Assembly (NCBI RefSeq): GCF_000063445.1
Contig: NC_009464.1
Span: 496,001 to 560,000, forward strand
Reading direction: 5' to 3'
DNA: 64,000 nt
Source of the DNA: Methanocella arvoryzae MRE50
GTDB lineage: Archaea > Halobacteriota > Methanocellia > Methanocellales > Methanocellaceae
The notes under the pieces were generated by a model. The model saw only the letters and a list, made by a program, of their open reading frames with translations. It ran no database searches and had not been told where the DNA came from. Shown here piece after piece: positions 10,126 to 50,552 of this stretch. Made by a program: the position numbers and the translations under genes. The first letter of the stretch is position 1, and each line of letters opens with the position of its first letter.

Positions 10126-10255
10126 CACCACAGGGGCTCGCAGAGCTACTATTTACCATAGAGGCACAGAGAAACACAGAGGCTTACATTATATTTGGTT
10201 ATTCACCTATCCGTCTATCAAGTAAATCTCTGTGAGTCTCTGTGCCTCTGTGGTA
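10126..10255. repeat. Foldback repeat, family A (CACAGAGGCACAGAGA motif)
   Basis: Left arm 10126-10187 begins CACCACAGG and contains TAGAGGCACAGAGAAACACAG; right arm 10224-10255 is its complement, containing CTCTGTGCCTCTGTGGTA. The arms enclose about 35 AT-rich bases. The same motifs recur at 28932-29164. Lies between the convergent mch and DHH genes. Confidence 0.8.
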
Positions 10256-10263
10256 TACTAGTT

Positions 10264-28931: not shown

Positions 28932-29164
28932 CACCACAAAGACGCACGGTGAAACAGTTCACCACAGAGGCACAGAGACTCACAGAGACTCACAGAGTAC
29001 TGGTTACCACAGAGACACAGAGACTCACAGAGACTCACAGAGAATTATCTATCAAGTGATTGATATAGTATAATCTATTAAAAGATCTCTGTGCGTCTCC
29101 GTGCCCTCTGTGCCTCTGTGGTAAAACCTCTGTGCGTCTCCGTGCCCTCTGTGCCTCTGTGGTA
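28932..29164. repeat. Foldback repeat, family A, two-fold amplified
   Basis: Left arm (28932-29042) has two copies of a unit containing CACAGAGACTCACAGAGACT. Right arm is a 41-base direct repeat starting at 29087 and again at 29128, each containing CTCTGTGCCTCTGTGGTAAAA. The arms are mutually complementary in motif, separated by an AT-rich spacer (29043-29083). Related to 10126-10255. Confidence 0.85.
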
Positions 29165-29185
29165 AAAAAGAGGTATTGCCATTTT

Positions 29186-30154: not shown

Positions 30155-30748
30155 TCATTTCCTGGACTTGTCCCTGGGCAGGCAGATGAACTCCCGCACC
30201 TGCAGGTCGAAGAAGCTGTTTGAGTGTGCAGGCTTGATGACACATGCAGTGTCGACGCCAGGCCAGTTGCCGCCGAGGGCGATGATCTCAGTCTCTTCAT
30301 CTACAGGCACGTAGCCGCCATCTGCCGCCATAAGGCTGATTTCCACACATACCTTTGTCCCGACGCTGATCAGGGTGCGCAAGGCTTCAGCAATCGTTTC
30401 CACCCGGGAAGCGCCGCCGAGCCTTCTCGAGATCGAGCGCTCGACTCCGGATAGCGCGTGGGACATTTCCACGACGGTTATGCCCATTTCTCTCAGCTCA
30501 CTGAGGTACCGGTCTTCCAGGTCTCGCTCTCCCGGGCCGGAGAAGCCCACATGGTGACCTACGACGATCACTTTTACGCCCGTGCCGGCAAACGCCTTTG
30601 CCGCTTTCACGCCGGTTTCGCCGCTGACGCTGGCCACGACGACATACTTAATCCCCAGTTCCTTCGCCCTTTCCACTGCCAGCCGGATCGTGTCATCCGT
30701 GTTCTGCCCGCCCGGCTTCTCGAAGTAAACGATGTCCCGCTTGATCAT
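30155..30748 (-). CDS. Pyruvate kinase alpha/beta (C-terminal) domain-like protein
   Basis: A 197-residue stand-alone version of the C-terminal domain of pyruvate kinase. It begins IVYFEKPGGQNTDDTIRLAV, typical of the archaeal stand-alone group, continues with VVVASVSGETGVKAAKAF, then GHHVGFSGPGE and a conserved SLMAADGGYVPVDEETEIIAL block. There is no catalytic barrel, so it is not a pyruvate kinase; the group has unknown function and may bind nucleotides or phosphorylated ligands. Length fits the family. Confidence 0.85.
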   Translation of the reverse strand: MIKRDIVYFEKPGGQNTDDTIRLAVERAKELGIKYVVVASVSGETGVKAAKAFAGTGVKVIVVGHHVGFSGPGERDLEDRYLSELREMGITVVEMSHALSGVERSISRRLGGASRVETIAEALRTLISVGTKVCVEISLMAADGGYVPVDEETEIIALGGNWPGVDTACVIKPAHSNSFFDLQVREFICLPRDKSRK

Positions 30749-30840
30749 GATTAGAAGATTGTCCGGGGGTGAAATAAAGGTTACTTATTAGTTCACACAA
30801 TATAAAACGATTGCTACGCTGTACTATCCACTATTACAGG

Positions 30841-31290
30841 GATACTCGAAAACAGCTGTCTCTATGTTGGTGAACGTACACGAACGCTGCGCTGTACCGG
30901 CTATCACATTACTATGATACTCTCAAACGGTTATCTCTGTGGAGGTGAACGTACACGAACGCTGCGCTGTACCGGCTATCACATTACTATGATACTCTCA
31001 AACTGTTATCTCTGTGGAGGTGAACGTACACGAACGCTGCGCTGTACCGGCTATCACATTACTATGATACTCTCAAACGGTTATCTCTGTGGAGGTGAAC
31101 GTACACGAACGCTGCGCTGTACCGGCTATCACATTACTATGATACTCTCAAACTGTTATCTCTGTGGAGGTGAACGTACACGAACGCTGCGCTGTACCGG
31201 CTATCACATTACTATGATACTCTCAAACTGTTATCTCTGTGGAGGTGAACGTACACGAACGCTGCGCTGTGCTAAACCACACAGATGCCA
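30841..31290 (+). repeat. Tandem array of a 75-bp repeat (six units)
   Basis: Units start at 30841, 30916, 30991, 31066, 31141 and 31216. The first is diverged in its left half, the middle four are nearly identical, and the sixth departs after 31270 into the adjoining foldback element. The only regular difference among the rest is AAACGG versus AAACTG. Each unit ends near CGAACGCTGCGCTGT, the terminal motif of the foldback element. Because 75 is divisible by three, the array stays open as a 144-codon ORF; this is not evidence of coding. There are no unique spacers, so it is not a CRISPR array. Confidence 0.95.
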
Positions 31291-31529
31291 CAGATTCCAA
31301 TTGATTCCACAGATTTCTCTGCTGAATCCACAGAATACTACACGATAGCACAGAAGGAACATGCAATGCTATTCGATCACTGATAGCAATCATAAGAGTA
31401 CTATAGTAATAGATCAGATTATTTTTTAGTTATCTGTGGAATCAACCGTAATCTGTGCAATCGATCGTAATCTGTGGATTCTGTTTCAATCTGTGGCATC
31501 TGTGAGGGTCTGGCACAGCGCAGCGTTCG
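31256..31529 (-). repeat. Foldback element, family B, copy 1 (inverted relative to copy 2)
   Basis: Ends are a perfect 17-bp inverted repeat, CGAACGCTGCGCTGTGC at 31256-31272 and its complement at 31513-31529. Inside, CACAGA motifs start at 31280, 31289, 31308, 31329 and 31349, and the complement TCTGTG starts at 31433, 31452, 31471, 31490 and 31499: spacing 9 then about 20 from each end, mirrored. The centre is AT-rich (31380-31430). Its reverse complement matches 50161-50427 over the full length. Homology also continues for tens of bases beyond both ends. Confidence 0.93.
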
Positions 31530-31652
31530 TCTTGCTGTCTCGAGAGAGCCTGTACAACAATAAAACGCACAGCCCAGCATTCATATTGTCGTGTAGTTTC
31601 TGGATAAGCACGAGAACTATATGTAACTGGATGCTATAGATCGTCCCGTCTT

Positions 31653-32417
31653 ATGCGCATCATCGGCTACTCATCGATAGATAAGGCACTCGTCGTCGCC
31701 CCGGGGCCGAAGGTACTCGATATTTCTTCCGGGATAGCCATGACGCTGACCGGTCGGGGCTGTGCGGGACGGTGGGATGGAGATAAGTATATCCCTTGCG
31801 ACAGCTCTGTGGCGCCTTACTGTCAGCGATGTGTTGGGGCTGCCGACGCGTGCGTGATTTGCCGGGGGGAGTGTCGCAAGCCTGAAAAGACCTGCAATGA
31901 GGAGCACTCTGTCTATCTGGCGGTATTTGCACCTTCGACTATCAAGGTCGGGGTGTCGAGGACTTACCGTCTGGAGACTCGCCTGAACGAGCAGGGAGCG
32001 GACGAGGGGTATGAGATTGCCCGGTTCCCCGACGGCGAGGCAGCGAGAAGGCTGGAGAGGGAGCTGAGTGCAAAATACCCTGACAGGCTGGGGTTCACTG
32101 ATAAAATCAAGGCAGGATGTATTGACAGGGCTGCCATCGATGCTACTATCACCGATTTTACGCCGATCCGGCGCTTCAGCTTCAAGTACTTTCCCCGGGA
32201 GTTATGGATGGCACCGATCTTGATCAAGCCCGACGTCGGTATGACTGTTTCCGGAACGGTGTTCGGCGTCAAAGGGCAGGCGCTGGTGCTGGAAAAGTAC
32301 GATACGCTGTACGCTATGAGCCTCGACAGCCTGATCGGGTACGACTGGGAAGAGGTCCAGTGCAACAGTGGTCAAAAAAGAAAAGGAAGCCTGCAGGTTT
32401 CCCTGTCAGGCTTTTAG
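31653..32417 (+). CDS. DUF2797 domain protein
   Basis: A 254-residue protein of the DUF2797 family. The cysteine cluster CQRCVGAADACVICRGEC (about residues 49-66) probably binds zinc; the central segment YLAVFAPSTIKVGVSRTYRL resembles the GIY-YIG-like core proposed for this family, followed by RLNEQGADEGYEIARF. Function is unknown; a nuclease role is only a fold-based guess. It lies immediately after the family B foldback element with a TATA-like sequence between. Confidence 0.82.
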   Translation: MRIIGYSSIDKALVVAPGPKVLDISSGIAMTLTGRGCAGRWDGDKYIPCDSSVAPYCQRCVGAADACVICRGECRKPEKTCNEEHSVYLAVFAPSTIKVGVSRTYRLETRLNEQGADEGYEIARFPDGEAARRLERELSAKYPDRLGFTDKIKAGCIDRAAIDATITDFTPIRRFSFKYFPRELWMAPILIKPDVGMTVSGTVFGVKGQALVLEKYDTLYAMSLDSLIGYDWEEVQCNSGQKRKGSLQVSLSGF

Positions 32418-35793: not shown

Positions 35794-36039
35794 ATGTATA
35801 TCCCGATCGCATTTTACAAAAACAGCCTTGTCCTGATAGACAGTATGGATACTTTTGCGCTGTACTTCTGCTCCAGCGTCAAACAGAAGATGAGGCCGGC
35901 TCCGGGCGATAGCCCTGCAGGCTACGACGGCGAAGGCATACCCTCTGAGCATGACGCTGACGATGAGATCGTCGGCGGAGAGGGCTTCACATCAGACGAC
36001 TCTTTCGCAGACTCGTTTGATGATGACGACGACCTGTAA
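35794..36039 (+). CDS. Small acidic protein, unknown function
   Basis: An 81-residue protein from ATG 35794, with TATAAAAG at 35759-35766 placing transcription start close to the ATG. The N-terminal half is hydrophobic with two cysteines (FALYFCSSV); the C-terminal half is strongly acidic and ends in five Asp residues and Leu. No family recognised. The stop codon lies inside a 42-bp perfect palindrome, which probably ends both this and the convergent MTH865-like transcript. Confidence 0.55.
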   Translation: MYIPIAFYKNSLVLIDSMDTFALYFCSSVKQKMRPAPGDSPAGYDGEGIPSEHDADDEIVGGEGFTSDDSFADSFDDDDDL

Positions 36040-36068
36040 AAGGTCGTACGACCTTTTACAGGTCGTCG
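36027..36068. terminator. 42-bp perfect palindrome between convergent genes
   Basis: Two 21-base halves, perfectly complementary with no loop, centred on CGTACG at 36047/36048. It spans the stop codon of the small acidic ORF and lies 14 bases from the stop of the minus-strand MTH865-like gene. Probable bidirectional terminator; can also extrude as a cruciform. Confidence 0.75.
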
Positions 36069-36081
36069 ACCTGTTAAGGCC

Positions 36082-49960: not shown

Positions 49961-50552
49961 GCTATAGCTCCTGTTCCTGTCTGCTATACAACTGTATGCC
50001 GTGATGACGGTACATTATAGATTTTCTTGCGGCGATATAAATAATTTCTGGGATATTTCGGGAATTATGTGGACAATGAATTGCCTTTACCTGGCAAATC
50101 GACAAAAAAGAAAGCTGTGCTGTGCGTTTCTGGTTGCTTAAGTGTGGTGAGACAGCAAGACGAACGCTGCGCTGTGCCAGACCCTCACAGATGCCACAGA
50201 TTGATACAGAATCCACAGATTTCTATGGATAGCACAGATTACGATGGATTCCACAGATAACTAAAAAATATTCTGATCGAGTACTCTTAGGATTGCTATC
50301 GATGATCTAATAGTATTAGCGTATTCCATCTGTGATATCGAGTAGTAATCTGTGGATCCAGCAGAGAAATCTGTGGAATCAATCAGGATCTGTGGCATCT
50401 GTGAGGATTAGCACAGCGCAGCGTTCGACAACGTTCACCCACACACAGACAACTATTCACAGGTATCCCTGCAATAGAGACAGCCGACACAGCGCAGGGT
50501 TAGTACAACTCGGTAGAGGCGGACACAGCAATCGCTGCATCCGCATTTTATC
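49961..50552. other. Intergenic region holding foldback element B copy 2
   Basis: Apart from the element and its flanks, nothing supports a gene. Two minus genes lie either side. Short plus-strand ORFs here derive from the repeat. Confidence 0.6.
50161..50427 (+). repeat. Foldback element, family B, copy 2
   Basis: Same element as 31256-31529 in opposite orientation. The 17-bp ends CGAACGCTGCGCTGTGC (50161-50177) and its complement (50411-50427) are identical to those of copy 1. CACAGA motifs start at 50186, 50195, 50214, 50233 and 50252; the complement starts at 50329, 50349, 50370, 50389 and 50398. Homology goes beyond the ends: GAGACAGCAAGA to the left and one degraded unit of the 75-bp repeat to the right, up to about 50500. 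Confidence 0.93.

Follow-up and report, generated by a model that had tools for sequence, protein, structure and literature searches.

A dispersed foldback family of Methanocella arvoryzae, probably mobile, shares its arm design with repeats framing genes of the GxxExxY family

A gene-free inverted repeat in the genome of Methanocella arvoryzae MRE50, built of two mirrored arrays of a short motif around an AT-rich centre, raises the question of whether it is a mobile element, a piece of DNA used by the host, or the source of a structured RNA. The locus lies in a stretch of 64,000 nucleotides (contig NC_009464.1, positions 496,001 to 560,000; hereafter the window, in whose numbering coordinates are given unless a genome is named). 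The original prediction had described a duplicated element of about 270 bp, and re-reading of the window located both copies in opposite orientation and with identical inverted 17-bp cores: copy 1 at 31256..31529 (plus strand, 274 bp from core to core) and copy 2 at 50161..50427 (minus strand, 267 bp). The two copies are real, but they are two of about 43 full-length copies in the genome.

Copy 1 consists of an inner left core, CGAACGCTGCGCTGTGC (31256..31272, plus strand), a left arm with five CACAGA motifs (31280..31354, plus strand), an AT-rich loop (31355..31432, no strand), a right arm with five TCTGTG motifs (31433..31504, minus strand) and the inverted inner right core (31513..31529, minus strand). 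The five motifs on either side of the AT-rich centre were confirmed in both copies, copy 2 having the motif layout of copy 1 in reverse orientation, and gene prediction found no gene within either of them, again as predicted. The CACAGA motifs of copy 1 start at positions 25, 34, 53, 74 and 94 from the left end and their TCTGTG mirrors at 26, 35, 54, 73 and 92 from the right end; therefore, the spacings are 9, 19, 21 and 20 bp on the left and 9, 19, 19 and 19 bp on the right. With longer spacings of 19-21 bp and no constant two helical turns, the proposal of a protein bound along one face of the DNA is weak, and it is further weakened by the gain or loss of whole 19-20-bp units in one arm only.

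The 17-bp repeats had been taken for the termini of the element. They are indeed identical inverted cores, but the outer ends lie beyond them, with further cores and linkers of 36 bp or about 58 bp. To the left of copy 1 extends a tandem array of 75-bp units, each a core plus a type-B linker (30808..31255, plus strand), with cores at 30881, 30956, 31031, 31106 and 31181 and a degenerate core at 30808, and to its right a type-A' linker with a degenerate core at 31567-31583 (31530..31583, minus strand). The outer parts of copy 2 are a type-A linker with a degenerate core on the left (50109..50160) and a type-B linker with a degenerate core on the right (50428..50503), both without strand.

A single search of the whole genome (G000; 3,179,916 bases in one contig) returned about 40 matches, and reading of the neighbouring sequence at each locus gave 43 full-length copies. 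These span 244-303 bp, with a consensus of 267 bp, and their lengths cluster near 245, 265 and 284 bp because right arms above all have shed or acquired units of 19-20 bp. Allowing A or T at base four, the 17-mer core was counted 88 times on one strand and 80 times on the other, and the same pattern read backwards does not occur in the genome. Cores almost always point inward (>>> centre <<<), and the linkers outside the inner cores are of three kinds, A and A', with a unit length of about 53 bp, and B, whose units measure 73-76 bp; when loci are oriented by their centre, the left arm nearly always carries A' or B. A second subfamily, with core CGATCGCTGCGCTGTGC and a centre of about 150 bp, has the A linkers in common with the main family; this subfamily and the outer ends are described from the stretches around the matches, which are a sample and not the complete set. 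Since one centre can stand in several outer contexts and one linker can accompany several centres, the cores look like junctions between modules. Side features were also seen at some loci: the flank of the second subfamily carries a GC-rich hairpin of its own (GACGCCTGCNNNNGCAGGCGTCC; L067, L070, L075, L076, L050 and similar), and four copies (L063, L068, L077 and L079, near positions 237669, 951071, 1859652 and 2123275 of the genome) share one kind of interrupting sequence, starting CAGTATCCMCGTG, which is possibly an insertion sequence favouring these foldbacks.

The family is confined to one species. Counting copies in the genome and its relatives, recording empty sites and looking for target duplications had been proposed as checks of mobility, and the first of them gave about 43 full copies here and none in 59 further genomes from the phylum, among them one congeneric genome and two of the same family, all of which lack both element and core. 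Plasmid and phage or viral sequences searched contained no match to the element, and a viral or plasmid origin of the family was dropped. Among 84,980 species genomes, the core joined to CACAGAT had four scattered matches in unrelated bacteria, about the chance expectation.

As to placement, none of 61 centres from both subfamilies overlaps a predicted gene. Copy 1 occupies the intergenic region 30749..31652 (no strand), flanked by two divergent genes (30155-30748 and 31653-32417). The same gene pair is present in three relatives (G001, G002 and G003), where about 0.1 kb separates the genes, versus 0.9 kb in M. arvoryzae; the site is thus empty in all three, and copy 1 has been inserted since divergence from them. 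The neighbours of copy 2 show no synteny in the relatives. Around the copies of this genome no recurring target duplication was found, shared 8-mers falling at no one position.

The dispersed copies in a single species, their intergenic position and the empty site of copy 1 support the non-autonomous mobile element put forward in the original prediction, which is further backed by the sister species G003, where foldbacks of this design carry exact 8-bp target duplications (see below). Like MITEs, the family is short (a consensus well under 600 bp), gene-free and bounded by inverted cores, with 43 dispersed intergenic copies and an empty site in relatives; it differs from them in the nested core-plus-linker arrays beyond the inner ends, in its heptad arms, and in that neither a duplication nor a parent insertion sequence was found, no transposase sharing ends with the element having been found in this genome among ISL3 and Y1, the two families tested. 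Indeed, the five ISL3 elements of the genome contain no core and do not match the foldback, and ISL3 was rejected as the mobiliser in M. arvoryzae because its ends differ from those of the query family.

A connection with a coding sequence emerged at L109 (G000:1938273), a gene of the GxxExxY family (TIGR04256, PF13366). Upstream of it lies a full query-family element, with its left arm and an extra arm and linker, and about 22 bp past the stop codon lies a query-family arm that ends in a core and matches the family consensus at 95% of its terminal 60 bp. Searches with TIGR04256 gave four matches in M. arvoryzae, of which only this one is framed by query-family arms, and 2-7 per relative. When the upstream and downstream 600 bp of archaeal GxxExxY genes with enough flank were compared (E<1e-4), inverted repeats were detected for 26 of 36 genes, versus 1 of 95 control genes treated identically; about a quarter of the archaeal genes had none detected. 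Heptad-like arrays, many of which start with AACC, make up the arms; their heptads include CACAGAG, CGCAGAG, CACGGAA, CGCGAAT, CGCCAAG and CACAAAG, and at some loci only 2-4 bp separate gene and arm on both sides. Outside one archaeal phylum the sample is small, with seven plasmid and two viral-contig cases, of which five of nine have inverted repeats (Gemmatirosa, Bernardetia and Bacteroides plasmids and both viral contigs); in IMG/VR, GxxExxY occurs at two loci only. Foldbacks of this design often frame GxxExxY genes in archaea and in some bacteria, a pattern pointing to a kind of mobile element that has gone unrecognised. Two further loci of M. arvoryzae, the GxxExxY gene L118 (G000:2969604) and the remnant L160 (G000:2777107), each have heptad arrays of the GCCAAG type close by, which represent a third design of foldback in the genome. 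On a Sphingomonas parapaucimobilis plasmid (L171), a GxxExxY gene lies between fabD and fabG, with no inverted repeat detected.

All four GxxExxY genes tested match both TIGR04256 and PF13366 (PDDEXK_3). Thirty GxxExxY sequences share the invariant residues G-x-G-x-x-E-x-x-Y, D77, E87-x-K89 and Q101-xxx-Y105, which is the pattern of nucleases of the RecB/Cas4/lambda-exonuclease type. An AlphaFold model (pLDDT 94) has its best PDB matches, with weak E values of 0.003-0.02, in lambda exonuclease and in SSO0001, a Cas4 protein. By motif and modelled fold, GxxExxY is therefore a predicted PD-(D/E)XK, Cas4-like nuclease; to our knowledge, it is a named family with no assigned function. A literature search, which reached few subscription journals, found no description of GxxExxY as part of a mobile unit, nor of this repeat family in Methanocella, of which an earlier description may exist. 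One paper notes a GxxExxY domain call beside a reverse transcriptase (PMC8934634).

The sister species G003 carries gene-bearing and gene-less foldbacks side by side. Two GxxExxY units with unrelated flanks share 98.6% identity over 643 bp, and three other units are 90-95% identical over 764-790 bp at unrelated sites. About 40 gene-less foldbacks at additional sites carry the arm of the latter group and are composed of core GTTATGCCGTCGTTGAGTG, AACC, a CACAG-type array, a loop and the mirror image. Among seven young gene-less copies with both outer ends, six show exact 8-bp AT-rich duplications (p=2e-4 versus re-pairing), and the seventh has a duplication off by one base. Given these duplications, a DDE transposase is the likely mover of the G003 foldbacks. 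Their ends (GGTTCTT...TTTGGGAT; GGTTCTTGTGCGTTTTTGGGAT) resemble those of the ISL3 copies of M. arvoryzae (GGTTCTTCTCCCTGTTTGGGAT), which also show an 8-bp duplication, and no ISL3 transposase was detectable in G003. ISL3-like ends with an 8-bp duplication, the marks of an ISL3-derived MITE, are thus found in the G003 family, whereas the query family has ends that are not ISL3-like and no such duplication. Two of the three gene-bearing foldbacks of G003 end at the core without ISL3-type outer ends and the third (L112) keeps one, as an outer linker, so gene-bearing and gene-less forms may move by different routes.

Taken together, each copy in the window is probably a non-autonomous, MITE-like foldback mobile element, from a widespread class in which the arms are heptad arrays and the loop can house a GxxExxY gene. 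The functional unit would be core, CACAGA array, loop, TCTGTG array and inverted core, nested in extra core-plus-linker units. Copies in M. arvoryzae may have spread in trans through some transposase acting on the cores or on the outer ends and linkers, and the GxxExxY nuclease might recognise or cut the hairpin arms, either as a second mobility function or as a passenger living in the arms; that GxxExxY itself moves the elements is inferred. A bolder form of the proposal, offered tentatively, is that archaeal and bacterial GxxExxY genes alike form the coding portion of an unrecognised class of mobile elements, in which inverted heptad arrays frame a small Cas4-like nuclease, that this enzyme targets the hairpin or cruciform made by its own arms, and that gene-less families like the present one derive from this class. 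A competing account, which we regard as a realistic though less likely one, makes the foldbacks ordinary MITEs mobilised by an insertion sequence, GxxExxY being an occasional loop passenger with no part in movement. The ISL3-like ends and 8-bp duplications in G003, typical of DDE transposition and not of a PD-(D/E)XK enzyme, fit this account, as does the ISL3-type linker on one side of L112. However, the query family has neither those ends nor detectable duplications, the ISL3 transposase is now undetectable in G003, and the heptad arrays frame GxxExxY in unrelated lineages, in some cases with gaps of no more than 2-4 bp at either side, a closer fit than chance passengers would lead one to expect.

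Other alternatives were weighed as well. The elements could be domesticated, with cores and CACAGA arrays bound by a host protein, or acting as terminators or insulators at gene ends, and kept by selection. Non-consensus bases amount to 0.6% in the inner 17-bp cores and 2.9% in the CACAGA motifs, versus 13.0% in spacers and 12.4% in the loop, and private mutations per 1000 bases number 4.8 in cores, 6.3 in motifs, 11.3 in spacers and 15.0 in the loop. This depletion in cores and motifs suggests that constraint has acted on the copies after their origin, though gene conversion could contribute. Moreover, both neighbours were called for 40 long-centre copies, and of these 20 lie between convergent, 14 between co-directional and 6 between divergent genes; among window gaps of 60 bp or more, a small baseline, convergent ones make up 19% (p=1.4e-5). 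Given this preference for convergent gene ends and the unusual conservation of the cores, an insulator or terminator role is conceivable, and core conservation could reflect host function instead. We nevertheless consider domestication unlikely: a congeneric species does without the element, neither window copy lies in a convergent gap, entire motif units are gained or lost within one arm, and avoidance of promoters would also yield a 3'-end bias. The idea of a long hairpin transcript, as a source of structured or small RNA, draws on the strong predicted fold, which for both window copies is much more stable than in dinucleotide shuffles (RNA z -11.4), but DNA folding parameters give the same result (z -11.9 and -14.6). 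In an alignment of 25 copies, compensatory change was seen at one of 61 consensus pairs and the covariation term was slightly unfavourable, invariant pairs being uninformative either way. Motif pairs are nearly invariant and the two arms have spacers that are not complementary to each other, so the conservation observed is one of sequence and not of base pairing. An Rfam search with the element gave no match, and an RNA gene was set aside as very improbable. A REPIN-like element moved by a RAYT (Y1 transposase) would share with the query family short palindrome-like, inverted cores in mosaic intergenic arrays, specific to the species; however, M. arvoryzae has no Y1_Tnp gene, and the family differs from REP, BIME and REPIN sequences in its convergent nested arrangement (>>> centre <<<) and long heptad arms. 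This possibility, the most improbable considered, is refuted unless the RAYT comes from outside.

The preferred reading, a mobile foldback, has a parallel of design in eukaryotes. Foldback transposons such as Drosophila FB and Galileo have long inverted repeats made of tandem subrepeats in variable number, and the query arms likewise are inverted tandem subrepeats whose number varies, a likeness of design; the query element is much smaller, and archaeal. For the CACAGAG-type dispersed repeats of several prokaryotic genomes examined, no explanation was found in the literature searched. The present data tie such repeats to GxxExxY, the repeats being foldback arms and the predicted nuclease gene lying between them. 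GxxExxY thereby gains a testable role, that of a nuclease directed at hairpins within a mobile element, and the origin of the repeats, the roughly 43 copies described here among them, becomes testable too.

Two other repeats were noted in the window. Another foldback family, in whose arrays CACAGAG/CTCTGTG motifs recur every 8-10 bp, is present at 28961-29170 and 10135-10256; it has tens of copies in M. arvoryzae (95 match rows), with fragments in G003 and one in G001. At 36029-36077 lies a short palindromic repeat, ACGACCTGTTAAAGGTCGT, with a period of 19 bp.
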